DNA of 12,976 bases from Robiginitomaculum sp. Lineage in GTDB: Bacteria; Pseudomonadota; Alphaproteobacteria; Caulobacterales; Maricaulaceae. The notes under the pieces are model-generated. The model was not told where the DNA came from. It was given only the letters and a program-made list of their open reading frames with translations, and made no database searches. Below are positions 1-12,976 of the stretch, one piece after another. A program made the translations under genes and the position numbers. The stretch covers positions 1 to 12,976 of the forward strand of contig JALWUB010000407.1 of assembly GCA_026993275.1 (NCBI GenBank), read 5' to 3'. Positions within the stretch are counted from its first letter, which is position 1. Every line of letters starts with the position of its first letter.

Positions 1-1157
1 CCGCGCGCCGCATATTCCCATTGCGCCTCGCTCGGCAGGCTGTATTCAAAACCGGTTTTCGCGGACAGCCAGCGGGCAAAGTGCTGCGCGTCATCCCAGC
101 TGACATTGATCACCGGGCGCGCACCGCGGCCCCAGCCATTGTCCCTTGGGATGGTCCGGCAGGCCTTGGCGGCCACGCAGGCATCCCATTGGGCAAAGGT
201 GATCTCATTAACGCCAATGGCGAAAGGGTGTGCAAAGGTTACCGGGCGCGCCGGTTTCTCATTGGGCCGGGCGCCCTCATCCCCCGCCGCCGCGCCCAGT
301 GTCGCCGTGCCCGGCGGCAGGCTCATCATCAGCGGGCAATCGCGGCAATCGCGAAACGTCTTGCCCGGCGACGGGCGCAGGCGTTCGATGGCCGCCATGG
401 CCTTGGCGACAAAGGCGCCGTGGGCGAAGCTGGTCAGATATTGCCGGTAAGCGGCAACGGTATCGGCGGCCTTTGCCTGGGCCCAGGCGGCGCGGTCGGC
501 GGCGCTGCGGCGCAAGGCGCTGATGCGGCGCTGCGCCTCTTTGGCATGTTGGCCAGCCGGGTGCCTGGTCAGATAATGGCCATAGCTGTCTATGCTGTTC
601 TTGCGTGCCGCCGCCTCCCAGTCCGCCGTGTCTTGCGCCGCGCGCTCGGCGGCATCCTTGGCGATGGCCTCGGCCCTGGCTTTCATCTGCGCCACCAGTT
701 CGCGCGCCTTGCCTGCGTGCAGCCCTTCGGGCCAGGCGGCGAGATAATCCTGATAGCCCGCCATGGTCTGGCGCTGCTGGGCAATCTCCCAGGCACGGTT
801 GTCATAGGCATTGATGGCATCGTGCGCCTCTTGCGCATGCTTGCCGTTGGCAAACAGGGCGAGATACTGGCGATAGCCTTCCAGCGTATCCTGCTCCAGC
901 GCCTTGACCCAGGCCGCATCATCACTGCTGACCTGCACCGCAGGCGCAGGCCGCGCCGGCCTCGGAGCACTGTTTGCGGGCGCCGGCGCAGGCGGGCGGG
1001 CGGGCACCACCACCCTGACCAGCAGCCACAAGGCGGCCAGGGCGACCAGGCCCAGGGCCAGGGCGCCGACCACCCAGCGCACCCAGGGCGGCCGCTCCGC
1101 GCCGGGTGCAAACTCTTCGCCCGGGGCCGGGCCATCCTGTCCGGGGGGCGCCGTCAT
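1..1157 (-). CDS. Membrane-anchored FGE/SUMF1-like (formylglycine-generating enzyme family) protein with tandem W/Y repeats; C-terminus cut off by window edge
   Basis: Open frame from the ATG at 1157 to the left edge; 385 residues are visible and the C-terminus is missing. The start overlaps the stop of the upstream channel gene by 4 bp (ATGA), which implies translational coupling. A short Pro/Gly-rich cytosolic tail is followed by one transmembrane helix (about residues 27-51) and a Pro/Ala linker. Four imperfect repeats begin at W83, W123, W180 and W225, with the pattern W..A....T...Y..YL....G.HA..A. From about residue 268 an FGE-sulfatase (SUMF1) domain begins: FRDCRDCP, then the family blocks ARPVINVSWDDA (346-357) and LPSEAQWEYAAR (374-385). 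Family members either oxidise a cysteine to formylglycine or, more often in bacteria, act as non-catalytic binding domains. The catalytic cysteines would lie beyond the window, so activity cannot be judged. Predicted topology puts repeats and FGE domain in the periplasm. Confidence 0.88.
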   Translation of the reverse strand, partial: MTAPPGQDGPAPGEEFAPGAERPPWVRWVVGALALGLVALAALWLLVRVVVPARPPAPAPANSAPRPARPAPAVQVSSDDAAWVKALEQDTLEGYRQYLALFANGKHAQEAHDAINAYDNRAWEIAQQRQTMAGYQDYLAAWPEGLHAGKARELVAQMKARAEAIAKDAAERAAQDTADWEAAARKNSIDSYGHYLTRHPAGQHAKEAQRRISALRRSAADRAAWAQAKAADTVAAYRQYLTSFAHGAFVAKAMAAIERLRPSPGKTFRDCRDCPLMMSLPPGTATLGAAAGDEGARPNEKPARPVTFAHPFAIGVNEITFAQWDACVAAKACRTIPRDNGWGRGARPVINVSWDDAQHFARWLSAKTGFEYSLPSEAQWEYAAR

Positions 1158-1933
1158 GCCTGTGCGGTGCTCTCGTCATGGCCCAGGCGCAAGATCAGAT
1201 TGTCGAGACAATACTGCCCGGCCTCATTGAGGGCGCGTTCTTCCTTGGCCTGCACCAGCGACTGGATCAGCACGATGACCGCCGACATCAGCAGCGCCAG
1301 CAAGGTGGTGGTGAAGGCCACGCCAAGCCTGTTGGTGACCTGATAGAGAAAATCATCGGCCTGGGCATTGGCTGGAACACCGGCATATTGCAGCGCCAGC
1401 ATGATGCCCATGACCGTGCCGATAAAGCCCAAAGAGGGGATCAGCCAGATCAGATAGCGCATGGGGGCATAGCGCAGGTCAATTTCGTGCATGTAAAGCT
1501 CCAGTGAGGAATTGAGCACCGAGATTGCCTGATCCTCCTTCTTGCTCATGCTGTATTGATCAATGGTGCGCAGGATCATGCGCGGCAAGAAGGCCTCCTT
1601 GCCAAAGCGCCGGTTGAGAATGCCATCGCGGATCTTGTCGATCATCCGCGCCGTCAGCAGCACGCCATCCGTTGGCAGATAGCCGCGCTTGAGCTGGTTT
1701 TCCTCCTCGGTGGCCGCACTCCAGCGCAGGAACAGCTCCCCCAGGGCAATATAGAACGCGATCCACATGATGTTCTGAACGGTAAACGGCCAATAGCCTG
1801 CATTGCCGTCGATCAGGATATCCTGCACCAGCGCCGAGCCGGACACCCGGATAATGCCAATGGTCACGAGCGCCGCAATGACCGAGACGAGAGTGACAAA
1901 GGCATGTCTGAAAAAGGATCTGTAATGCTTCAT
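1154..1933 (-). CDS. MotA/TolQ/ExbB-family proton-channel subunit
   Basis: 259 aa. The start is the ATG at 1933; the frame is open further upstream but that would run into the preceding vWA gene, and no in-frame ATG/GTG/TTG lies in the 25-bp gap. Four hydrophobic segments are visible: about 11-30, 50-69, 160-182 and 203-226. An approximately 90-residue charged loop lies between helices 2 and 3, the MotA-like layout rather than the three-helix TolQ/ExbB one. The family signature is in the last two helices: PSLGFIGTVMGIMLAL (166-181) and GVAFTTTLLALLMSAVIV (204-221), the Gly/Thr-rich pore-lining region. In this family a pentamer surrounds two single-helix partner subunits and uses the proton or sodium gradient to drive work across the envelope. 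The likely partners are the two vWA proteins encoded just upstream. It is too short and in the wrong context for flagellar MotA. Confidence 0.9.
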   Translation of the reverse strand: MKHYRSFFRHAFVTLVSVIAALVTIGIIRVSGSALVQDILIDGNAGYWPFTVQNIMWIAFYIALGELFLRWSAATEEENQLKRGYLPTDGVLLTARMIDKIRDGILNRRFGKEAFLPRMILRTIDQYSMSKKEDQAISVLNSSLELYMHEIDLRYAPMRYLIWLIPSLGFIGTVMGIMLALQYAGVPANAQADDFLYQVTNRLGVAFTTTLLALLMSAVIVLIQSLVQAKEERALNEAGQYCLDNLILRLGHDESTAQA

Positions 1934-1958
1934 GCCTGCGGTTTTCCACTTGCTGTCA

Positions 1959-2933
1959 TCATGCGCATACGCCGGGATTGGGCGAGGCCAGCGCCATGAA
2001 CTGGCCGCCATTGGCCTTGGCCAGGGATTCCATGAATTCCACCGTGCCATCGTAGTCGAAGTAATTGCCGACAACAATGGTATGGATTTCCTTGCGGCCG
2101 CCATTCATGCGGGTGATGGCGCGCACCAGCTGCGCCGGGCTGAGGCCGTCATTGGCGCGCGGATTGGGCAGGCCGTCACTGACCAGGAAAATCGCGCCGC
2201 CCGGCCCGTCGAGCAGGCGGCGGAAGGCGTTCAGCATGGAGGACGAGCCGCCAAAGCGGTGCGTCAGATCATCGGCGAACCGCTCCGCAGCCGTGCGGGT
2301 TTGCGCCGTAAAGGGCCGCAAGTGCCCATCCCTTGGCCAGGTATAGAGATGCGGCCCGGAATCGGTCTGCTGGAAGCCTGCCACCAGAAGCCGGTGATTG
2401 GGCTGCAGGGAATCGATGATGCGGTGCACGGCGCGCTTGATCGAGGCTTCATGGCCTTGCAGGCAGCGATTCATGTCCAGCGCCACGACAATATCGTTCT
2501 GCCTGGTCTTCAGCCCCAGAAAGCGAAAGGTGATGCGCGCCTTGCCTCTGGCAGGGGCCGGGCTTTGCGCCACCGGCTCGGGAAGCCGGGCGGCGGCCCG
2601 GGCCCTGGCCTGCTTGGCCTGCAATGCGGCTTCGGCGCCGCGCAGGCGCTCCAGCAGCTTTTGCGCCTCGCTCCTGATCTGCGACACTTGGGCCTGCGCC
2701 GCATCGCGCCTGGTCTCCAGCGCCTTGCGGCGGATGGTGTTTTGCCGGGCGCTGTCCTGTGCGGCGCGGGCCAGATCGGCAATGGCGTTTTGCGGCGTGC
2801 GCGCGCGCACTTCCTTCTGGTAATAGGGCATCAGCACGATGGTCAGCAGCGCAAACGCCCCCATGGCGGCCGCAAACAGGTCGATGGCGGACAGCGAAAA
2901 GATCTCGATTTCCCGGTCAGCGCGGCGCTTCAT
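1959..2933 (-). CDS. Single-pass membrane protein with coiled coil and degenerate-MIDAS vWA domain (stator 'B'-like paralogue 1)
   Basis: 324 aa. The ATG at 2933 overlaps the stop of the paralogue upstream (ATGA, 4 bp). A basic N-terminus (MKRRADR) precedes one membrane helix (about 16-37) that contains D18 in the motif FSLSAIDLFAAAMGAF, reminiscent of the Asp-bearing helix of MotB/ExbD/TolR. An Ala/Gln/Arg-rich coiled coil follows (about 48-115), then a Pro/Ala linker and a vWA fold from about 140 to 315. The metal-site (MIDAS) motif DxSxS reads D153-M-N-R-C157, so both serines are replaced, although the second aspartate is kept in FLVSDG (D253) and a Ser-rich GGSSS sits where the MIDAS Thr normally is. 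The domain should lie in the periplasm. It may bind a partner without a canonical metal ion. Function unknown; the fold call is firm, the channel link is inference. Confidence 0.85.
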   Translation of the reverse strand: MKRRADREIEIFSLSAIDLFAAAMGAFALLTIVLMPYYQKEVRARTPQNAIADLARAAQDSARQNTIRRKALETRRDAAQAQVSQIRSEAQKLLERLRGAEAALQAKQARARAAARLPEPVAQSPAPARGKARITFRFLGLKTRQNDIVVALDMNRCLQGHEASIKRAVHRIIDSLQPNHRLLVAGFQQTDSGPHLYTWPRDGHLRPFTAQTRTAAERFADDLTHRFGGSSSMLNAFRRLLDGPGGAIFLVSDGLPNPRANDGLSPAQLVRAITRMNGGRKEIHTIVVGNYFDYDGTVEFMESLAKANGGQFMALASPNPGVCA

Positions 2934-3862
2934 CGGGCTCTCCCCACGAATTCGCCGCGATTGCGCAGGGCCAGTTCCTGCAGGAACAGGGTCAGGCGCG
3001 GGTCCTGGGTGTAATCGCCAATGGCCACGGTATGGATTTCCGTGCGGCCGCGATTGCGGGCGCTGATATTGCGGATGATCGAATCCGGATCGCCATCGTC
3101 CGGGGCGCCGTCACTCATCAGGATGATCGCTTCGGGGTGCAGGTTGAGCGCCCGCACCAGGGCGTTCTGGGTTGGCGTGCCGCCGCCAAAGCGGCGCGCC
3201 ATGCCGGCCACAAAACGCCGCGCCGCGCGCACCGTCGATGCGCTGGCAGCCACCATCCGTCCATTGGGCGGAAACGCATCATAGGTTGGCCCGCCGCGAT
3301 AGCCCAGAATGACAAAGCGAAAGTCCGGCTGCATCTGGTCGAGCACTTCATTGATGGCGGCGACCACCGCGCCGCGGTGCGCCTCCATCGAGCCGGACAT
3401 GTCGACAAGAATGGCGATTTTCTTCTTCGACGTGCCCAGCCCGAGGATGGAAAACGCCTGCCCCCGGGCCACGCTGCGCGGCGGCGCGGCCACCGGGCGG
3501 GGGGTCTGCACCGGCTGCGCCACCGGTTTGGGAATGGTGATGCTGGCGGTTCTGGCCTGCACCTCGCGCAAGCGCTGCTGCATCCGGGACATTTGCGCCA
3601 TGCGGGTTCTGTATTGCGCCTCCAGCAGCCGGATTTGCGCCTGCAGGGCGCGGATCTGCGCCATCTCGCTGTGGCTGGTCTGCGCCGCAAAACGCCGCGC
3701 TTTGACCAGGTCTTCCAGTTCCTCCATGGACTGGTCCGTGCCGCCCTGGCGGTAATAGGGAAACAGCACCAGCACGATCAGGATGAAGGCGCCCAGCGAG
3801 GCGGCAAACAGATCCAGCGCCGAAATGGAAAACACCGAAATGTTGTGCCTGCGGCTGCGCAT
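2930..3862 (-). CDS. Single-pass membrane protein with coiled coil and intact-MIDAS vWA domain (stator 'B'-like paralogue 2)
   Basis: 310 aa. The start ATG at 3862 lies 6 bp after the upstream stop, with no strong ribosome binding site. Layout matches the next gene: basic N-terminus, one helix (about 15-37) with D17 in FSISALDLFAASLGAF, a Gln/Arg-rich coiled coil (about 44-105), a Pro-rich linker (111-130) and a vWA domain (about 135-308). All three MIDAS elements are present: DMSGS (D154, S156, S158), T229 in GGTPTQ, and D251 in LMSDGAPDD. It should therefore bind a divalent cation, usually Mg, and could engage a ligand through an acidic residue as integrin-like domains do. The shared helix motif and adjacency to a MotA/ExbB-type gene suggest that it packs inside that channel as a MotB/ExbD-like subunit. 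The two paralogues look like products of a local duplication. Confidence 0.87.
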   Translation of the reverse strand: MRSRRHNISVFSISALDLFAASLGAFILIVLVLFPYYRQGGTDQSMEELEDLVKARRFAAQTSHSEMAQIRALQAQIRLLEAQYRTRMAQMSRMQQRLREVQARTASITIPKPVAQPVQTPRPVAAPPRSVARGQAFSILGLGTSKKKIAILVDMSGSMEAHRGAVVAAINEVLDQMQPDFRFVILGYRGGPTYDAFPPNGRMVAASASTVRAARRFVAGMARRFGGGTPTQNALVRALNLHPEAIILMSDGAPDDGDPDSIIRNISARNRGRTEIHTVAIGDYTQDPRLTLFLQELALRNRGEFVGRAR

Positions 3863-3868
3863 GGGCGC

Positions 3869-4678
3869 TCAAAAACCGCTCAGGATCTGCAGCAGGGTGA
3901 CCAAGGAGCGCTTTTTTTCCTGTTTCTTGTTGTTTGCGGTCATGTCCTTGGATGTGGCCACGGCCGTGGACAGCGCCTCGCGGTTCATTTCCGCATTGGC
4001 CATATCGTTCGACTTCGCCAGGCGTTTGTCGAGATCGGTCATGTAGAGCGCTTCCAGTGCATCAACATCATGATTGAAGGCCTTGTATTCGATCTGGTTG
4101 CGGGTGCGCACAAGGGCGCGCTCATAGGCCAGCACGCTGGCGCCATATTGCGGGTCCAGATGCGCGTTCTGGCGGCGCAGGGCATCGGCGAGGATCTGGC
4201 GCAGGAACAGCGCATCCTGGTCGATCGTGCTGTTGAAATCCGCTTTGGCAAGGTCCGGGTCATAGGCGCGCAGGCTTTCGATCTGGCCGGATATGACCGG
4301 CTGGCAGGCCTTGGCGAAATCAATCAGATAGGCAATCTGGCCAACCACCAGCGCCGGTTCCGCCTGGCGCAGAACCGGGTTGGCAATGCCCTTGACGACC
4401 TCCAGGATCGGGGTCCTGGCGCTGACCCTGGAACGGCCATAATGCGCCAGCATGGCGCGAAACTCCGGCGTGGCATCGCGCGCCAGTGCCTCGGTCAGGC
4501 GGAACAGCTGATAGCGGGCGCCGGTATCGCGGGCAGGAAACCCGCTCAAGGTGGTGATGCAGTGCTCTTGCACCGGCGCCGGGCTGGCCCCGGCAGAACC
4601 GGCCGGGGCGGTTTTGGCAGCCGCAGGGACTGCCGCCAGCCAGAAAAGGGCCAGCGCAAGACCCATTGCCCGGCCCAT
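3869..4678 (-). CDS. Secreted (periplasmic) helical protein of unknown family
   Basis: 269 aa. The start is the ATG at 4678, 1 bp after the stop of the lipoprotein gene; a second in-frame ATG at 4666 (M5) is possible. Residues 1-21 form a Sec signal peptide ending VPAAA with likely cleavage before K22. An Ala/Pro linker follows, then an almost entirely alpha-helical, highly charged body. Two cysteines, C40 and C125, could form a disulfide. The tail is Lys-rich (about 249-258) and ends hydrophobic (SLVTLLQILSGF). I do not recognise a family or any catalytic motif. Its place between an outer-membrane-type lipoprotein and the vWA/channel genes suggests a periplasmic component linking the inner-membrane complex to the envelope; that is inference from context only. 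The frame is open well upstream but that part lies antisense-like within the lipoprotein gene and is not used. Confidence 0.75.
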   Translation of the reverse strand: MGRAMGLALALFWLAAVPAAAKTAPAGSAGASPAPVQEHCITTLSGFPARDTGARYQLFRLTEALARDATPEFRAMLAHYGRSRVSARTPILEVVKGIANPVLRQAEPALVVGQIAYLIDFAKACQPVISGQIESLRAYDPDLAKADFNSTIDQDALFLRQILADALRRQNAHLDPQYGASVLAYERALVRTRNQIEYKAFNHDVDALEALYMTDLDKRLAKSNDMANAEMNREALSTAVATSKDMTANNKKQEKKRSLVTLLQILSGF

Positions 4679-4679
4679 G

Positions 4680-6668
4680 TCAGGCCCCCGGTGCATTGGC
4701 CCTGTCCGGTGCGCGGGCGGCCACAGGCGGCGCCTGTGCTCCGGCATCGGCAGGCGGTGCAATGCGGGCATCCCTCGGCGCCGGGCCAATATCCCTGCCG
4801 CCTTTGAAGCGGCGCAAGGACGGCCGCGCGCCGGGGCGTGATACGCGCGCAATGCCCTCGGCCCGCCCGTCAACGAAATAGCCATCAATGCCATAGTCGC
4901 CATTGCGGCCGTGCACGATGGCATAGCCGCGGCCATTGGCCTTGCCGTTTCGTGCCGCGCCGAAATATTCGCGCGATGTGCCGCCGGCAAGACGCAGCAC
5001 GCCCAGTCCCTGCCCGGCCGCCAGGCCGTCCTTGCAGACACCGGACCAGACCCCCTTCGCGCCGCCCTCGTCCCCGCCGAGGGGCAGGAACTGGCAGCGT
5101 GTGGCGATGGTCTCCAGCGCCCGCTGGTTTTTGCCATACAGCGCCTTGAGCTTGGCCTGCAAATCCTCAAACCGGATGGCGGTGATGGTTTCGTTCGAAT
5201 CGATCAGATTCACCTGCACGGCAGTTTGCTCGTCCAGGGCCGGAATGATGGAGGCAAAATAATTGCTGCCAACAGCCCTGGAGCGGCGCTTGTAGGCAAA
5301 CACCTGGGAGCCGGCATAAACGCTGGCGCCCAGAATGGCATTGCTCAATATGGTGTCGCCATAGCTGTTGTTCTTGTTGCCCGAGGAGATGGCGCTGGCG
5401 GCGACCACGCCCAGAACCGCCAGAAACGCCGCCGCATTCTGTTTGCGGGCCAGGCTGCGCCGTTCCTGAAGGACATCCTCTTCCGCCGCCAGCATGTCGC
5501 GGACCTCGGCGCCCATTTCGCCATTGCGAATGCCGTCATAAATGCGCAGGGACTGCACCGAGAGATATTTGCGCTCTGCGTCCAGAAGCCGCTCGGCATA
5601 GCGCAGGCGCGCCTGGTAGTCCTCGTCAGGCGAGCCCGCCACCGTCAGGGCGGCAAGGGTCGGGTCGATCCCGGCCACGGCGGCGGCCTTGCCCACCATC
5701 ACCGCCTTGCCCGCATCCAGGCGGTTGAGCATGGCGACAATGCGATCGGCAAAGGCGCTGGAAAAGGCGCCGGAGAGCGGATCGACCGTGCCGGTATCAT
5801 CGCCTTGCAAGGCGCGCAGGGCGTCGCCGTCCAGGCGGATCTTTTCCAGCGGGTAGATTTGCACGGCATTGCGCTCTGGCCTTTGCGTCAGGGGCTGCGT
5901 GGCCAGCGCCGCCTGCCTGCCATTGGCCAGATAGGCGATAAAGGCATGTGCGGGCGGCGGCGCGGCGAGCTTGCCAGCCTCCAGCGATTGCAGCGAATGC
6001 TCCACGATCTCGCGCCCCTGCCCGCCCGCATAGGCCAGCAAGGGCCGGCTTGCCAGCAAGACGCCGTCCGTGGCCGGCGCGGCGCGGTAATCGGTGCGCA
6101 CCACCACCAGCGGCGTGACCAGATCGCCAAAGGTCAGCGGCGTGCTGTCCATCATCCGCTTCAGATCGGGAAAGGAATAGGTGGCAAAATCAATGGTCAG
6201 CACACTGCCCAGGCTTTCCGCGCGGGTCACCGGCACCGAGGTCAGGGCGCCATCATCATCCAGCTTGACCAGATGCGGCGACAGCAGCACGGAATGCTCC
6301 GGCAAGCGCTTGACCAGGTCCTGATAGAGCGACAGGGCGAAATAGCTGGATTTGACAATGACACTGCTGGCAATGGCGGCGCTGTCCGGCGAACTGGCGT
6401 ATTGCCGCGACACCCCTCCGCCAATGGGCGAGGCGGCATAGGCCTGCTCATAGGCGTTTTCCGCTTCTGGATCGACCATGGCCGGATAGCGGATCACCAC
6501 CAGGACAGACCCTGGCGGCGCCTTGGCGGTCAGATGCTCAGCCGGACCCCGCAAGGCAGAGGCGGAGGTATAGTGACCCGTCGCGGTCGTGGCGCACGCC
6601 CCCAGCAGCAGCAACAGCCCCAGCATGGCCAGTCTGATGGCCAGGGGTTGGCACGGAGTGTGTTTCAT
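4680..6668 (-). CDS. Outer-membrane-type lipoprotein with MORN-like C-terminal repeats
   Basis: 662 aa. The ATG at 6668 is chosen because it begins a lipoprotein signal peptide: a Leu-rich core and the lipobox L22-G-A-C25. Residue +2 is Ala, not Asp, consistent with sorting to the outer membrane. A GGGAG ribosome-binding sequence lies 11 nt upstream (6680-6684). No known domain is recognised in residues 30-400, which look like a mixed alpha/beta globular region ending in a charged helical stretch. Two Gly/Ala/Ser-rich hydrophobic stretches follow (about 412-430 and 439-459), perhaps membrane-inserting or buried. Residues about 541-605 contain MORN-like units (G.G.G, REYFG...GKANGRGYA, DYGIDGYFVDGRAEG), then a Pro/Ala-rich tail. 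First gene of the six-gene block; the next start is 1 bp after its stop. Function unknown; an envelope scaffold or anchor for the vWA/channel proteins is plausible. Confidence 0.82.
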   Translation of the reverse strand: MKHTPCQPLAIRLAMLGLLLLLGACATTATGHYTSASALRGPAEHLTAKAPPGSVLVVIRYPAMVDPEAENAYEQAYAASPIGGGVSRQYASSPDSAAIASSVIVKSSYFALSLYQDLVKRLPEHSVLLSPHLVKLDDDGALTSVPVTRAESLGSVLTIDFATYSFPDLKRMMDSTPLTFGDLVTPLVVVRTDYRAAPATDGVLLASRPLLAYAGGQGREIVEHSLQSLEAGKLAAPPPAHAFIAYLANGRQAALATQPLTQRPERNAVQIYPLEKIRLDGDALRALQGDDTGTVDPLSGAFSSAFADRIVAMLNRLDAGKAVMVGKAAAVAGIDPTLAALTVAGSPDEDYQARLRYAERLLDAERKYLSVQSLRIYDGIRNGEMGAEVRDMLAAEEDVLQERRSLARKQNAAAFLAVLGVVAASAISSGNKNNSYGDTILSNAILGASVYAGSQVFAYKRRSRAVGSNYFASIIPALDEQTAVQVNLIDSNETITAIRFEDLQAKLKALYGKNQRALETIATRCQFLPLGGDEGGAKGVWSGVCKDGLAAGQGLGVLRLAGGTSREYFGAARNGKANGRGYAIVHGRNGDYGIDGYFVDGRAEGIARVSRPGARPSLRRFKGGRDIGPAPRDARIAPPADAGAQAPPVAARAPDRANAPGA

Positions 6669-6802: not shown

Positions 6803-8158
6803 CTATGCGTTCAAGCTGTGCATGACCTGCACAAAGGCCTGTTCTATCCGCGCTGCATCCTTGTGGCGGCCCTGATGCACAACGCGGCGGCCGCGCACAT
6901 ACACATCCTGCACCGGGCTGGCGGCCGCAGCGTAAATCCAGCCATCCAGCCAGGCATCGCCCGAGCGCGCCACCAGCGCCGGATGGCCTGGGTCAAGCGT
7001 GACGATATCGGCGCTGTGCCCTTGCGCCAGAGCACCTGTCTCTTGCCCCAAGGCCTGCGCCCCGCCCTGCAGCGCCCGGGTGAACAGCGCCGCACCGGCA
7101 GAGCGGCCAGGCGGGGCCAGCGGCGTGCGGGTGCCGCTGATCAGCCTCTGGCCATAATCCAGCAGCCGCACTTCGCCCGCAAGGTCAATGCGCACGCAGG
7201 AATCCGAACCAAGGCCGAAACGGCCGCCTTCGCCCAGATAGGCAATGGCGGGAAAAATCCCGTCGCCCAGATCGGCCTCGGTTACCGGGCACAGCCCGGC
7301 AACCGCACCTGAACGGGCAAGATCGCGCGTCTCCTGCGCATCCATGTGGGTGGCGTGCACCAGGCACCAGCGCCCGTCCACACCGGCATGGTCCAGGAGC
7401 CAGCGCACTGGCGGCGCCCCAAGCGCGGCGCGGCAGTCCTCCACCTCGCGCGGCTGTTCGGCGGCATGCATGTGCACCGGCAGGCCGGGAAACATTTCCA
7501 CAAGCGCGCGCACGTCCCTGGTGCTGACAGCGCGCAGGGAATGCGGCGCAATGCCCAGGGGCAGGTCCGGAAACCGGTCCATCAAGGTGGTCACCAGCAT
7601 CGCATAGTCCTGCAAGGACTGGCCAAAACGCCGTTGCCGGGGCTCCAGCGCGCTGCCGTCAAACCCGGCGCGGGCATAATAAACCGGCAGCAGGGTCAGG
7701 TTGATGCCGGTTTGCGCGGCAGCCCTGACGATCTGCACCGCGGTTTCGGCCGGGTCGTCATAGACGCCGCCATCGGGCCGGTTGTGCAGATAATGGAACT
7801 CGCCAACACCGGTAAAGCCGCTGCACAGCATTTCCATATAGGCCATGGCGGCGATGGCGCACAAATCGCCGGGGCCAATGCGCGCCGCCACGTCATACAT
7901 GGTTTCGCGCCAGCTCCAGAACGTGTCCTGCCCGCCCGGGCTGGCCCGTTCGGCAAGGCCCGCCATGGCGCGCTGCAAGGCATGGCAATGCAGATTGCCC
8001 ATGCCGGGCACGGCAATGGCGGCGCGGGCATCGCCCGGCATGGCCTTCGCCCCCTTTGCAAGGCTGGCAATGCGGCCTTCATCATCAAATGCCATGCGCA
8101 CGTTTTCCGCCCAGCCATCGGGCAGCAAGGCATGACCGGCATGAAGCGCGCTTTCCAT
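6803..8158 (-). CDS. hutF: Formimidoylglutamate deiminase (HutF)
   Basis: 451 aa, full length for the family. HutF hydrolyses N-formimidoyl-L-glutamate to N-formyl-L-glutamate and ammonia in the cytosol, the step before HutG in the five-enzyme histidine pathway. It is a metal-dependent amidohydrolase. Visible metal and catalytic motifs are the HxH of NLHCHALQRAMAGLAE (H57, H59), H206 in IAPHS, VHMHAAEQ (228-235), LVHATH (H268), and GSDSCVRID with D319, followed by the HutF-typical LLDYGQRL (332-339). The start at 8158 matches the normal N-terminus; the frame stays open far upstream but only as an antisense extension through hutI. A weak AAGG sits 3 nt before the ATG. It is divergent from hutI with a 72-bp gap, so the two transcription units probably share control. 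The six-gene envelope block lies 134 bp downstream on the same strand. Confidence 0.95.
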   Translation of the reverse strand: MESALHAGHALLPDGWAENVRMAFDDEGRIASLAKGAKAMPGDARAAIAVPGMGNLHCHALQRAMAGLAERASPGGQDTFWSWRETMYDVAARIGPGDLCAIAAMAYMEMLCSGFTGVGEFHYLHNRPDGGVYDDPAETAVQIVRAAAQTGINLTLLPVYYARAGFDGSALEPRQRRFGQSLQDYAMLVTTLMDRFPDLPLGIAPHSLRAVSTRDVRALVEMFPGLPVHMHAAEQPREVEDCRAALGAPPVRWLLDHAGVDGRWCLVHATHMDAQETRDLARSGAVAGLCPVTEADLGDGIFPAIAYLGEGGRFGLGSDSCVRIDLAGEVRLLDYGQRLISGTRTPLAPPGRSAGAALFTRALQGGAQALGQETGALAQGHSADIVTLDPGHPALVARSGDAWLDGWIYAAAASPVQDVYVRGRRVVHQGRHKDAARIEQAFVQVMHSLNA

Positions 8159-8190
8159 ACGCCTTGATAGCGCACCGGCGCGGCGGAAAA

Positions 8191-8210
8191 AAGACTTGCC
8201 GGACTGTCTT
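8191..8210. promoter_or_regulatory. Short inverted repeat in the hutF-hutI divergent gap, candidate operator
   Basis: AAGAC-N10-GTCTT, a perfect 5-bp inverted repeat spanning 20 bp. It lies inside the only intergenic DNA between the two divergent hut units and overlaps the candidate hutI -35 element, where a repressor would be expected. It does not match the TGTA-N2-TACA type palindrome known for HutC of other proteobacteria, so a HutC site is not claimed. A 5-bp arm can occur by chance. Confidence 0.3.
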
Positions 8211-8223
8211 GCTCTGCTAATTC
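8196..8223 (+). promoter_or_regulatory. Candidate sigma-70-type promoter for hutIHG
   Basis: A TTGCCG element (8196-8201) and TAATTC (8218-8223) are separated by 16 bp. The last base of the -10 is only 7 nt before the hutI ATG (8231), so transcription would begin at or within a base or two of the start codon and give a leaderless mRNA. No ribosome-binding sequence is visible before that ATG, which fits. This is motif reading only. Confidence 0.35.
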
Positions 8224-8230
8224 CCCTTCC

Positions 8231-9463
8231 ATGACTCCTGCCCCTGCTCCGCGCCAATGGCTGCTGACAGATGCGGACCTGGCCACCATGGTGCCGGGCG
8301 GTGCGCCCTATGGGCTGGTCAGGGATGGCGCCATCGCCATTGACGGCGCGCGCATTGCCTGGCTTGGCCCAAAGCACAAGGTGCCGGAAGACTATGCCGC
8401 ATGGCCGCGCGAAAGCGCATCCGGCGCCCTGGTCACTCCGGCGCTGATCGATTGCCATACCCACCTTGTCCATGGCGGCAACCGCGCCAGCGAGTGGGAG
8501 CGGCGTTTGCAGGGCGAAAGCTATGCCGCCATTGCCCGCTCCGGCGGCGGCATCCTCTCCACGGTCGCGGCCACCCGCGCCGCCAGCGAGGACGGCCTGG
8601 TGGCCTCTGCCCGCAAGCGCCTGGATGATTTCACCGCCCAGGGCCTCGGCACCATCGAGATCAAGTCCGGCTATGGGCTGGACCTGGAAAACGAACGCAA
8701 AATGCTGCGTGCGGCGCGGCGGCTTGGGCGCGAAAGCGGCGTCACGGTCAAGACCAGTTTTCTCGGCGCCCATGCCCTGCCGCCCGAATATGCGGGCCGC
8801 AAGGACGCCTATATCCGCGTGATAACAGAAGAAATGCTGCCCGCCATCGCCGAAGAGGGCCTGGCCGATTATTGCGACGGCTTTTGCGAAACCATCGCCT
8901 TCAGCCCGGCGGACATGCGCACGGTGTTCGAGGCTGCCAGAGCGCTTGGCCTTGGCCTGCGCCTGCATGCGGAACAGCTGTCCAACTCTGGCGGGGCGCA
9001 GATGGCGGCGGAGATGGGGGCGCTGTCCTGCGATCATCTGGAATATCTCGACGCAGACGGCATCCGCGCCATGGCCAGGGCCGGAACCAGGGCGGTGCTG
9101 CTGCCAGGCGCATTCTATTTTCTGCGCGAGCAGCGCAAACCGCCCGTGCAGGCCCTGCGCGATGCCGGTGTCGGCATGGCGCTGGCCAGCGATTGCAACC
9201 CCGGCTCCTCGCCGCTGACCTCGCTCCTGCTGGCGATGAACTTGGGCTGCACCCTGTTTGGCCTGACGCCGGAGGAAGCGCTCGCCGGGATCACCCGCGA
9301 GGCGGCGGCAGCGCTTGGCCTGGAAGCGGATCGCGGCACGCTCGGCGCTGGCAAAATTGCCGATCTGGCGCTTTGGGATGTGGATCATCCGGCGCAGCTT
9401 GCCTATGCTCTGGGCGCAAATCCGCACCGTTCGCAGATTCGCGCGGGATGCTGGCTGACATGA
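8231..9463 (+). CDS. hutI: Imidazolonepropionase (HutI)
   Basis: 410 aa, the usual family length. HutI opens the ring of 4-imidazolone-5-propionate to give N-formimidoyl-L-glutamate, the substrate of HutF. It is a cytosolic metal-dependent amidohydrolase. Motifs in order: [12 protein letters not shown] (74-85, metal ligands H76 and H78), [10 protein letters not shown] (142-151), FLGAH (H181), [12 protein letters not shown] (H246), the CDHLEY block (267-272), and [10 protein letters not shown] (D321, 319-328). The ATG at 8231 is the first in-frame start fitting the family N-terminus. It has no Shine-Dalgarno-like sequence and lies very close to a candidate -10, so the mRNA may be leaderless. 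It is the first gene of the plus-strand hutI-hutH-hutG operon; its stop overlaps the hutH start by 4 bp. Confidence 0.96.
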
Positions 9464-11004
9464 GCGAAACCCTGACCATCACGCCGGGCGAAGCCCGCCA
9501 CCAGGACTGGAAGCGCCTGCGCGCGGGCGCGAAGCTGGCGCTGGCCGATGCGGTCTGGCCGCAGGTGCAGCGGTCGGCCGATGCCATTGCCGGGATACTG
9601 GCGGGCGGCAACACCGTCTATGGCGTCAACACCGGCTTTGGCAAGCTGGCGACCACGCGCATTGCCGAAACGGACCTGGCGGACCTGCAACGGCGCATCG
9701 TGCTGTCGCATTGCGCTGGGACCGGCGCCGCCCTGCCCGAAACGGTCACGCGCCTGGTGCTGGCAATGAAGGCGGCAAGCCTGGCGCGGGGCTATTCCGG
9801 CGTGCAGCCGCGCACCATCCGCCTGCTCGTGGACATGCTCAACCGTGGCGTTTTGCCGGTGATCCCGGCGCAGGGCTCGGTCGGCGCATCGGGCGATCTG
9901 GCGCCGCTGGCGCACATGGCGGCGGTGCTCATCGGCGCGGGCGAAGCCCGTTATCAGGGCGCCCTCATGCCAGGCGGCGATGCGCTGAAACAGGCCGGGC
10001 TGGAGCCGCTGACGCTTGGCGCCAAGGAGGGCCTGGCCTTGCTCAACGGCACCCAGGTCAGCACCGCGCTGGCGCTGGAGGGGCTTTACGGCGCCGAGCG
10101 CAGTTTCAAGGCGGCGATGCTGGCCGGGGCGCTGTGTGTCGAGGCGGTGCGCGGCTCGCACGTGCCCTTTGACGCGCGCATCCATGCCCTGCGCGGCCAG
10201 AGCGGCCAGATCGCCGTGGCGCGCGGCTTTGCCGCCTTGCTCAAGGGCAGCGCCATCGTGTTGTCCCATGCGGATTGCGGCAAGGTGCAAGACCCCTACA
10301 GCCTGCGCTGCCAGCCCCAGGTCATGGGCGCGGTGCTGGACCTCCTGCGCCAGGCGGCGCAGACCCTGGCCATCGAGGCCAATGGCGTGACCGACAATCC
10401 GCTGATCTTTGCCGGTGATCACGAAGCGCTTTCGGGCGGCAATTTTCATGCCGAGCCGGTGGCTTTCGCCGCGGACCAGCTGGCGCTGGCGCTGTGCGAA
10501 ACCGGCGCCATGGCAGAGCGGCGCATTGCCATGCTCATCGACCCGGCCCTGTCGGACCTGCCGGCATTCCTGACCCCCAGTCCGGGGCTGAATTCGGGCT
10601 TCATGATCGCCCAGGTGACCGCCGCGGCCCTGGTCAGCGAAAACAAGCAGCGCGCCATGCCCGCCAGTGTCGATTCCATCCCCACATCAGCCAATCAGGA
10701 AGACCATGTTTCCATGGCCACCCATGGCGCCCGGCGGCTGCTGGCCATGGCCGGCAACACCGCCGGCGTGATCGCCATCGAGTTGCTGGCGGCGGCACAG
10801 GGCCTGGACTTGCAGGAGCCATCCTTGCGCAGTTCGGCGCCGCTGGAGCGGGTGCGCGGCGCCATCCGGGCCGCGGTGCCGATGCTGCGCGATGACCGCA
10901 TGATGGCGCCGGACATGGCGGCCATCAAGGCGCTGGTCCAGTCCGGGGCGCTGTTGCGCCTGGACGGCGTGGACACCGCCCTGCCCTGGGTGTGCGCGCC
11001 GTGA
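9460..11004 (+). CDS. hutH: Histidine ammonia-lyase (HutH)
   Basis: 514 aa, standard for the family. HutH deaminates L-histidine to trans-urocanate and ammonia, the first committed step of histidine use; active enzymes are cytosolic homotetramers. The A143-S144-G145 triad in [11 protein letters not shown] autocyclises to the MIO prosthetic group. Other family blocks are [12 protein letters not shown] (53-64, with catalytic Tyr54), [18 protein letters not shown] and the [17 protein letters not shown] block near the C-terminus. The ATG at 9460 overlaps the hutI stop (ATGA); an alternative in-frame ATG at 9448 would add four residues. The preserved triad and full length argue for an active enzyme. 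The product urocanate needs HutU, which is not in this window. Confidence 0.97.
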
Positions 11005-11798
11005 GCGCGCTTTTCACCCTCCATGAAGGGGCGTCGCCATTAATCCTGAGCTTTCCCCATTCGGGCACCCGCATCCCGGAAGACATCGCGCAAAACCTGA
11101 CGCCCGCAGGGCGCGCCGTGGCCGATACCGACTGGCATGTGCCGCGCCTCTATGCGTTTGCCAGGGCGCTGGATGTGACCTGGATCGAGGCGAAGCTCTC
11201 CCGTTATGTCATTGACCTGAACCGCGCCCCCGATGGCGCGCCGCTCTATCCGGGACAGCAGACCACCAGCCTGTGCCCGCATGAAAGTTTTACCGGAGAG
11301 CCCTTGTGGCAACAGGGCCGTGCCCCGGACGAGGCCGAAACCGCGCGGCGGCTGCAGCGCTATTTCACGCCCTATCATGACGCATTGACGGCCCAGATTG
11401 ACCGGGTGAAGGCCCGCCACGGCTATGCCATTCTCTATGACTGCCATTCCATTCGCGGCACCATCCCCCGCTTGTTCGACGGCGCCCTACCGGTTTTGAA
11501 TCTTGGCACCAATTCCGGCCGCTCCTGCGATGGCGGCCTGCAGAATGCCGTTGAAACGCAAATGGCCCAACACCCCTTCAGCCAGGTCAGCAATGGCCGC
11601 TTCACGGGCGGCTGGATCACCCGCCATTACGGCCGGCCGGAGGCGCATGTCCACGCCCTGCAAATGGAAATCGCCCAGCATGCCTATATGGACGAAGCCC
11701 CGCCCTGGCGCTGGGATGCGCAAAAGGCGGCACGCCTGCAACAGGCCTTGCGCGCTATCGTGAAGACGGTCTTGGACTGGCCTGCTCGGCCTGCCTGA
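11001..11798 (+). CDS. hutG: N-formylglutamate deformylase (HutG)
   Basis: 265 aa. HutG hydrolyses N-formyl-L-glutamate to L-glutamate and formate, the last step of the pathway that uses HutF. Family blocks seen: [10 protein letters not shown] near the N-terminus, [44 protein letters not shown], and the C-terminal [15 protein letters not shown]...HALQMEI. The start is taken as the GTG at 11001, which overlaps the hutH stop by 4 bp (GTGA); a GTG at 10992 would add three residues. It is the last gene of the hutIHG operon. Its stop codon directly abuts the stop of the convergent kinase gene, leaving no space for a separate terminator. This family differs from the arginase-like HutG of the four-step pathway. 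Confidence 0.95.
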
Positions 11799-12976
11799 TC
11801 AACTGGCGCGCCGGTCCTGAGGCCGAGCCTCGGCACGCCGGTTGATACACTTGAACACGCTCAGGAACAACTGGCGCTGGCAAACGGGCTTGCCGACAAA
11901 GCCGTTCAGGCCCATGGCCTTGCAGGTTTCAGGCTCGCCTATGCTGTGATCCGCGGTCACGGCGATGACGGGAATGCTGCGCCATGGCTTGTCGCTGGCG
12001 CGGATGCGGGCCATGGTTTCCGGACCGCTGAGCACGGGCATGTGCATGTCCAGAAGCACCAGATCAAACGTCTCTGCTTCAAGCAGATCAAGCGCTTCCT
12101 GGCCGTTTACGGCTTCGCTGATGGCAATGCCGGTGGCCGACAGCAAGGTGCGGATGACCTTGCGGTTGGTGGCGCAGTCATCAACCACCAATACACGACG
12201 GCCGGTCAGGCTGGTCTTGGCCGGGCGGGCCCCCGGCATGCCTTGCGGCTTTGTTTCCGGCACGCGGGCCTTGAAGGTGAAGTGAAACACCGAGCCCTTG
12301 CCCGGCGTGCTGTCCACCGTCACATCGCCGTCCATCAATTGCGCCAGTTCATGGGTGATGGCAAGGCCCAAGCCGGTGCCGCCAAACTCGCGCGAAATGC
12401 TGTTGTCGGCCTGCACAAAGGACGAAAACACCCGCTCGCAGGTCTGCGCATCCATGCCGATGCCGGTATCGCTGACGCTGATCCTGACAAGCTGGCTCTC
12501 GCCCTCCGCGCCGCAGACGGCAACCTTGACGGCAACCTTGCCCTGTTGCGTGAACTTGACGGCATTGGAGATCAGGTTGTTGAGGCACTGGCGCACCCTG
12601 ACCGGATCGAACAGCAAATGCTGCGGCAGGTCCGGGGCAATATCCAGATCAAAGTCCAGGCCCTTGTCCCGCGCCTGCTGTTCAAACAGCTTGCAGGCCT
12701 GGCGCAACACCTTGCCCAGATCGCCCTCAACGCAGGACAATTCCAGCTTGCCGGAGGCAATTTTTGAAATGTCGAGCACGTCATTGAGGATGGTGAGCAG
12801 CATCTCGCCAGACTCAACGATGGTCTTCACCTTGTCGGCATCATCCGCCGCCAGCGGGCTGTATTGCAGCGCCTGGGCCATGCCCAGCATGCCGTTCAGC
12901 GGGGTGCGGATTTCATGACTCATGGTCGCCAAAAACGCGCTCTTGGCTTCGCTGGCCTGCTCGGCCTCCTTGCGGG
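11799..12976 (-). CDS. Hybrid sensor histidine kinase/response regulator, N-terminus cut off by window edge
   Basis: 391 C-terminal residues are visible; the frame stays open to the right edge, so the sensor region is missing. Domains in order, numbered from the first visible residue: the end of a coiled linker; HisKA with the phospho-accepting His in ATMSHEIRTPLNGMLG (H20); HATPase_c with the N box NLISNAVKFT (N137), SDTGIGMD (D169 in the G1 box) and GGTGLGLAI (198-206); a linker; and a receiver domain with acidic D265-D266, phospho-acceptor D309 in LVLLDMHMPV, T340 in IAVTA and K362 in VGKP. All key residues are present, so an active kinase with internal phosphorelay is expected. A partner phosphotransferase would be encoded elsewhere. 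It runs convergently to hutG, and nothing in the sequence ties it to histidine use. Confidence 0.93.
   Translation of the reverse strand, partial: RKEAEQASEAKSAFLATMSHEIRTPLNGMLGMAQALQYSPLAADDADKVKTIVESGEMLLTILNDVLDISKIASGKLELSCVEGDLGKVLRQACKLFEQQARDKGLDFDLDIAPDLPQHLLFDPVRVRQCLNNLISNAVKFTQQGKVAVKVAVCGAEGESQLVRISVSDTGIGMDAQTCERVFSSFVQADNSISREFGGTGLGLAITHELAQLMDGDVTVDSTPGKGSVFHFTFKARVPETKPQGMPGARPAKTSLTGRRVLVVDDCATNRKVIRTLLSATGIAISEAVNGQEALDLLEAETFDLVLLDMHMPVLSGPETMARIRASDKPWRSIPVIAVTADHSIGEPETCKAMGLNGFVGKPVCQRQLFLSVFKCINRRAEARPQDRRAS

Follow-up and report, generated by a model that had tools for sequence, protein, structure and literature searches.

The gene block and its features

The DNA analysed here (the window, 12,976 nucleotides) is the forward strand of contig JALWUB010000407.1 of a Robiginitomaculum sp. 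(Caulobacterales). It is the entire contig, called C407 below, of a draft genome of 2.44 Mb in 520 contigs that is 87% complete. Its first half carries a block of genes, all on the minus strand, which encode in the direction of transcription an outer-membrane-type lipoprotein (Lip), a secreted protein (Sec), two transmembrane (TM) proteins of the vWA type (vWA2, then vWA1), a MotA/TolQ/ExbB-family channel, and a protein with a formylglycine-generating enzyme (FGE) fold (Table 1). Lip and Sec are 1 bp apart, and Sec and vWA2 6 bp; vWA2 overlaps vWA1 by 4 bp, 25 bp separate vWA1 from the channel gene, and the channel and FGE genes again overlap by 4 bp. These values and the recurrence of the arrangement in relatives bear out the original prediction made on this DNA, which described six same-strand genes separated by 25 bp or less, or overlapping by 4 bp.

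The FGE gene runs off the start of the contig. Its frame resumes on contig C245, where it ends with GFRLVRKIEQ and a stop codon, and the next gene on that contig is gene 7. Because gene 7 follows FGE on C245 and also recurs downstream of the block in relatives, the natural unit is composed of seven genes. The original prediction had missed this seventh gene, as well as the phosphorylation genes of the relatives and the apparent kinase loss, both considered below.

Table 1. Positions of the genes and residues discussed in the text (window coordinates unless a contig or locus is named; aa, amino acids; ORF, open reading frame; AF2, AlphaFold2)
Feature	Position	Strand	Evidence or remark
Lip: outer-membrane-type lipoprotein, 662 aa	4680..6668	-	lipobox Cys25; MORN-like C-terminal beta repeat, about residues 520-640
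Sec: secreted protein of 269 aa, entirely helical, 88-residue C-terminal helix	3869..4678	-	start codon chosen by analyst; AF2
vWA2: axle-type TM helix bearing Asp17, then a linker and a vWA domain whose DxSxS metal-site motif is intact (residues 154-158)	2930..3862	-	Pfam, 7-row alignment
vWA2 Asp17 codon, candidate ion-binding residue	3812..3814	-	alignments, masked-Asp profile
vWA1: paralogous partner bearing Asp18, with a degenerate metal-site motif (DMNRC)	1959..2933	-	alignment
vWA1 Asp18 codon	2880..2882	-	alignment, masked-Asp profile
MotA/TolQ/ExbB-family channel, 259 aa, four hydropathy peaks (12-30, 51-69, 161-179, 205-223)	1154..1933	-	PF01618, hydropathy, alignment
Channel Thr173 codon, aligned with TolQ GTV threonine (E 0.05)	1415..1417	-	57-row alignment, alignment to TolQ
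Channel Thr209-Thr210 codons	1304..1309	-	57-row alignment
FGE protein: a short tail in the cytoplasm, a single TM, repeats of W..Y type and a domain of FGE fold	1..1157	-	Pfam; 3' end on contig C245
Contig-end overlap, exact match to end of C245	1..127	.	127-bp exact overlap
Gene 7: secreted, Q/A/G/S-rich, about 361-404 aa depending on start	C245 about 4308-5411	-	profile; family composition
Very large, apparently secreted proteins (ORFs of 1161 and 1474 aa) immediately upstream of FHA-channel	L086 6190-9675, L087 5176-9600

The channel and its vWA partners

The channel matches PF01618 with an E-value (E) of 4e-11 (44.3 and 43.1 bits, for a curated cut-off of 22.9). Residues Thr173 and Thr210 are invariant in 57 of the 57 aligned members, and Thr209 is found in at least 90% of them; a weak alignment to TolQ (E 0.05) puts TolQ threonines at channel positions Thr173 and Thr210.

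Both vWA proteins start with the same helix, S-x-S-A-x-D-L-F-A-A-x-x-G-A-F. vWA2 matches PF13768 (E 5e-14) and retains the DxSxS metal-site motif. For vWA1 the Pfam vWA match is below threshold (16.6 bits for a cut-off of 27), and the motif is lost, its third position being a Cys in 7 of 7 aligned sequences. The helix Asp is present in all 126 aligned partner sequences that have a letter at that position, 3 further rows being gapped there. These sequences were collected with a profile that had the Asp masked.

Relatives were collected by scanning a genome collection with the channel alignment, which gave 150 stretches; the best 80 of these 150 were used for all locus counts, and were split into 33 close and 47 more distant loci. 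Many of them are metagenome bins or contig ends. At least one partner is encoded within the fetched DNA of 74 of the 80 channel loci, and two or more in 43. Of the six genomes without one there, four encode a partner at another place, the matched stretch carrying an in-frame stop in two of them, and two have a channel and no partner at E<=1e-6. Among 12 distant partners, which were chosen with TM/vWA profiles, a choice that favours a conserved helix, the 13 invariant columns all fall in the first 35 residues, for a mean column identity of 33%. This is the pattern expected of a helix held in a ring. No tolR/exbD-type Pfam match was found among the window proteins, and the ExbD matches of the same genome are all on another contig, C332. 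Judged on these alignments, the vWA proteins are very probably the MotB/TolR/ExbD-type partners of the channel, as had been proposed.

The central inference of the original prediction is in fact already published. Williams-Jones et al. 2025 predicted a TolQ-like 5:2 motor in which such vWA proteins, in place of TolR/ExbD, form the axle (PMC12204202). They report TM-vWA genes in tight linkage with tolQ homologues, for the most part as heterologous pairs and with no tolR/exbD, and AlphaFold 3 models, made for another member than the window's, that show a helix inserted in the pore, the Asp and a ring of Thr; for this helix-in-ring class, models are offered and no phenotype (PMC12204202). The window block has in common with these TPH-vWA/TolQ-like motors a TolQ-like gene, TM-vWA partners, the lack of TolR/ExbD and the helix Asp. 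It differs from them as a kinase-free seven-gene version with a lipoprotein, an FGE protein and gene 7, of which no description was found in that paper. The words 'kinase', 'phosphatase' and 'formylglycine' have 0 occurrences in the main text of PMC12204202, of which Figure 4c may show such neighbours. The seed of that survey was an Idiomarina (PMC12204202), and Idiomarina and Pseudidiomarina loci (L075, L079) belong to the window's channel family; these would be the published loci themselves. In the open-licence literature, among the matches listed, no description of the kinase/FHA link or of the seven-gene block was found, and the main text of a survey of MotAB relatives does not mention vWA (PMC12505986).

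A more distant channel (421-aa ORF) lies at L020 8094-10202 on the minus strand. Its neighbour has the same kind of Asp helix (NLSMMDVVTGAMGAF), and no vWA domain is recognisable in it by eye. The periplasmic head of the partner may be exchangeable.

Conservation and distribution of the block

The closest named relatives are Hellea, Robiginitomaculum, Litorimonas and Algimonas, all Caulobacterales. All 6 genomes of the same family in which the channel matched strongly have the six genes in this order; in L014 and L015 the channel and FGE genes are about 450-490 bp apart. At the 33 close loci, the channel, both vWA genes and the FGE gene are always present, Sec is found in 32 and Lip in 31. The loci that lack Sec or Lip are L038 and L039, where the contig starts within the block or adjacent to it. 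By clustering, a gene 7 family member lies at most 6 kb downstream of the block in 27 of the 30 close loci with downstream ORFs, and by profile gene 7 is detected in 29 of 33. The commonest upstream family occurs in 6 of 29 loci, and the commonest downstream family besides gene 7 in 5 of 30. The block is kept while its flanks vary.

The channel is present in 35 of 137 genomes of the family and in 1 of 18 genomes of the genus, and the distribution of the block is therefore patchy. Its kinase-free form exists in two named strains, Litorimonas cladophorae KCTC 23968 and Algimonas arctica KCTC 32513.

The envelope components

Neither Sec nor Lip has a Pfam family match at E<=0.01. The AF2 model of Sec has a mean pLDDT of 85.8, and a Foldseek search of the PDB with this model gave no match at E<=0.001. 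The FGE protein matches PF03781 (E 2e-20), and the best PDB match of a complete homologue, that of L016, is PvdO (E 2.5e-36). In formylglycine-generating enzymes we take the catalytic Cys pair to be positioned after the GGSW motif. In all 6 complete aligned FGE homologues, and in the C245 part of the window's own gene, RGGSW is not followed by a Cys, so this domain is probably not a formylglycine-generating enzyme. The window protein shares the FGE-fold domain with PvdO, PorK-GldK and FGE proteins, and differs from them by the missing Cys and by NCBIfam scores far under the family cut-offs.

Counterparts of two envelope components were found outside the close loci, in L086 and L087. The lipoprotein encoded there is homologous to Lip (HHalign 98.3%, E 1.2e-14, 481 columns), and a reverse profile search with it matched 28 of the 31 close Lip proteins, with a best E of 5.7e-16. 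The large secreted protein of L086/L087 and gene 7 have a 55-column motif in common (96.3%, E 1.8e-9); the 1161-aa ORF protein of L086 has no Pfam match. Lip, Sec and FGE are putative effectors.

A kinase, PP2C and FHA module in the distant relatives

By record title the 47 distant loci come from Alpha- and Gammaproteobacteria, Thermodesulfobacteriota, Latescibacterota, Gemmatimonadota, Binatota, Bacteroidota and Rhodothermota. Their neighbourhoods were searched with purpose-built profiles, made for FHA, kinase (KIN) and PP2C from three Pfam-identified seeds each with one iteration, and for FGE from seven seeds; counts obtained in this way should not be read as Pfam counts. FHA was found in 46 of the 47 loci, PP2C in 38, kinase in 40 and FGE in 17, a number that was again obtained with a corrected FGE profile. 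Kinase and FGE are combined in one ORF in 15 loci. The kinase count of 40 and the fusion count of 15 both include a degenerate case, L054, which is also the sole distant locus without FHA. Pfam confirms FHA, PP2C, kinase, FGE and vWA on the distant members tested.

At the close loci, FHA, PP2C and kinase were each found 0 times in 33 within the fetched DNA, which exceeds 20 kb for 16 of the 33. The window's own draft genome gave 0 Pkinase matches in a search that was positive in 11 of 14 control genomes.

L054 comes from a Sphingomonadales bin, on a 5.5-kb contig, with the gene order vWA2-vWA1-channel-FGE-gene 7, the match of its gene 7 reaching 76 bits. It is sister to the close clade in both the channel and the FGE trees (SH-aLRT 97 in both); the FGE tree excludes rows cut by contig ends (L028, L044, L051), and also loci below L021 and L123. 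The N-terminal stretch of the L054 FGE protein matches the family kinase profile (25 bits) and lacks the catalytic HRD and DFG aspartates; Pfam detects no kinase in this protein. This N-terminus is a kinase remnant, which, like gene content, conservation and co-occurrence, is read directly from the sequences. L086 and L087 are kinase-bearing clusters with Lip and gene 7 counterparts; therefore the envelope parts are shared, and it is the cytoplasmic phospho-module that differs.

Two further arrangements were seen around these genes. In L062 (Aliiglaciecola, 12323-20229), FHA is fused to a weak trypsin-like domain (below the Pfam cut-off) and to a thermolysin-type (M4) peptidase, and these FHA-peptidase fusions adjoin two PP2C genes and a kinase gene. 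In L055 (a Kiloniellales bin, 7093-9519), the kinase is fused to a right-handed beta-helix (NosD-like) instead of FGE: the extracytoplasmic half of the kinase also varies.

A proposed motor that may have lost its control module

We hold, with slightly better than even confidence, that the block encodes a trans-envelope ion-driven motor of the 5:2 type, whose cytoplasmic phospho-control module was lost in the window's lineage while the envelope parts were kept. Five channel subunits would form a ring, in which one vWA1 and one vWA2 would provide two axle helices, each with an ion-binding Asp. Ion flow would move the axle, and the two periplasmic vWA heads, one of them with an intact metal site, would act on Lip and on the periplasmic Sec, FGE and gene-7 proteins. 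In the distant relatives a cytoplasmic set of Ser/Thr kinase, PP2C phosphatase and FHA proteins would control the same motor, and the kinase is often the cytoplasmic half of the FGE protein. In the window's lineage this module would have been lost and the envelope parts retained. We infer the 5:1:1 assembly, the use of ions, the force, the direction of loss and what each periplasmic component does. Since the envelope parts persist where the kinase is gone, the machine more probably delivers its output in the envelope than through a phosphorelay; phosphorylation would then probably be regulation.

Several observations weigh against this motor, or against the loss. PDB chains of TolQ, MotA and PomA match the channel at E 0.05-0.4 only. 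When the axle helix was compared with an ExbD/TolR profile, Asp fell opposite Asp, and the match was not significant (probability 0.75%); the way in which the 12 distant partners were chosen has been mentioned. The genomes of L090 and L096 have the channel and no partner at E<=1e-6. In draft genome G206, the partners and the channel are on separate contigs, the channel near a contig end, and the partners' neighbours look unrelated. As for the loss, its direction rests on parsimony over a poorly resolved tree backbone, and L054 was flagged as a long branch. In the channel tree L086 and L087 fall outside the window's clade. A transfer of the lipoprotein could thus also account for its presence there, and the close-clade Sec has no detectable counterpart in these two loci.

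The strongest alternative is that the channel-vWA complex is a sensor of the state of the envelope, which would read ion motive force or outer-membrane damage and signal inward in the manner of TagQRST-PpkA-Fha-PppA, the window's lineage using another route or a reduced sensor. In the distant relatives, extracytoplasmic domains of the vWA type and of FGE fold do occur together with kinase, PP2C and FHA, and TagR is itself FGE-like. PpkA of Pseudomonas aeruginosa has an extracytoplasmic vWA domain and is activated with the periplasmic TagR and the outer-membrane TagQ (PMC3224232, PMC10482370). We regard this sensor as unlikely, and give it some weight because the type VI secretion system (T6SS) senses membrane damage via a kinase, FHA, PP2C, TagQ/TagR and vWA (PMC3224232, PMC10482370). 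The T6SS threonine phosphorylation pathway (TagQRST, PpkA, PppA, Fha1) shares with the relatives an outer-membrane protein, the three phosphorylation components and an extracytoplasmic vWA (PMC3224232, PMC10482370). It differs in having the ABC-transporter-like TagST and no MotA/TolQ channel, and in carrying vWA on its kinase, whereas the tested partners of our family carry it on the axle protein. Moreover, none of the three phosphorylation components was found in the fetched DNA of the 33 close loci, nor a Pkinase match in the window's own draft genome, yet the envelope parts are kept.

An outer-membrane tethering or division-site role like that of Tol-Pal, in which Lip would correspond to Pal and Sec to TolB, is distinctly improbable. 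One operon does hold a TolQ-type channel, an outer-membrane-type lipoprotein and a secreted partner, and Tol-Pal and Ton likewise use an ion-driven ring and axle to energise work at the outer membrane (PMC12204202). However, the axle heads of the window are vWA domains, none of the six proteins matches a Pal, TolB or TolA domain of Pfam at E<=0.01, and the patchy presence of the block argues against an essential division role.

The last alternative is an anti-phage defence like Zorya. ZorAB pairs a MotA-like channel with a one-helix partner, and Zorya consists of ZorA with ZorB plus ZorC/D or ZorE. A motor set off by phage at the envelope, as an alarm or as an effector, would fit the patchy presence (35/137 family genomes, 1/18 in the genus), the weak ZorA profile matches of the channel and one weak Sec match to the candidate defence family PDC-S01 (E 0.0085), but is very improbable: the best PADLOC match is at E 7e-4, the ZorA matches span part of the channel only, the window partner carries vWA, the six proteins scanned with PADLOC (these six, and not the whole genome) have no ZorB, ZorC, ZorD or ZorE match, and the neighbours in the window resemble histidine-degradation genes.

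From these loci the helix-in-ring vWA class gains a probable regulator and two further conserved envelope components, and the window's lineage offers a natural experiment that lacks this regulator. As the kinase-free version is compact and present in named strains, both the motor idea and the direction of signalling are directly testable. A bolder proposal, tentative enough that we lean against it, is that these genes, seen in loci that carry the labels of several phyla, encode a machine for trans-envelope energy transduction that would be the third after Ton and Tol-Pal. It would be a 5:1:1 motor with two unlike vWA heads and a Ser/Thr phosphorylation switch, thrown via a kinase whose periplasmic half sits in the machine. 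In one alphaproteobacterial lineage, the kinase would have become a pseudokinase and then disappeared, leaving a motor that is constitutive or mechanically gated.

Genes around the block

On C245 (L123), about 1-895 on the minus strand, a lipoprotein-like frame lies beyond gene 7 and resembles, by eye only, a phosphodiesterase/nucleotide pyrophosphatase. On the other side of the block, window positions 6803-11798 contain frames that look, from their sequences, HutF-, HutI-, HutH- and HutG-like (histidine degradation). The HutI-like frame is typical of the genus: it is 66-72% to its ten best matches, which are all from the same genus. At the end of the window (11799-12974, minus strand) lies what appears to be the C-terminal part of a hybrid histidine kinase with a receiver domain, cut by the contig end. 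ORFs related to this fragment occur in the flanks of L035 and L037.

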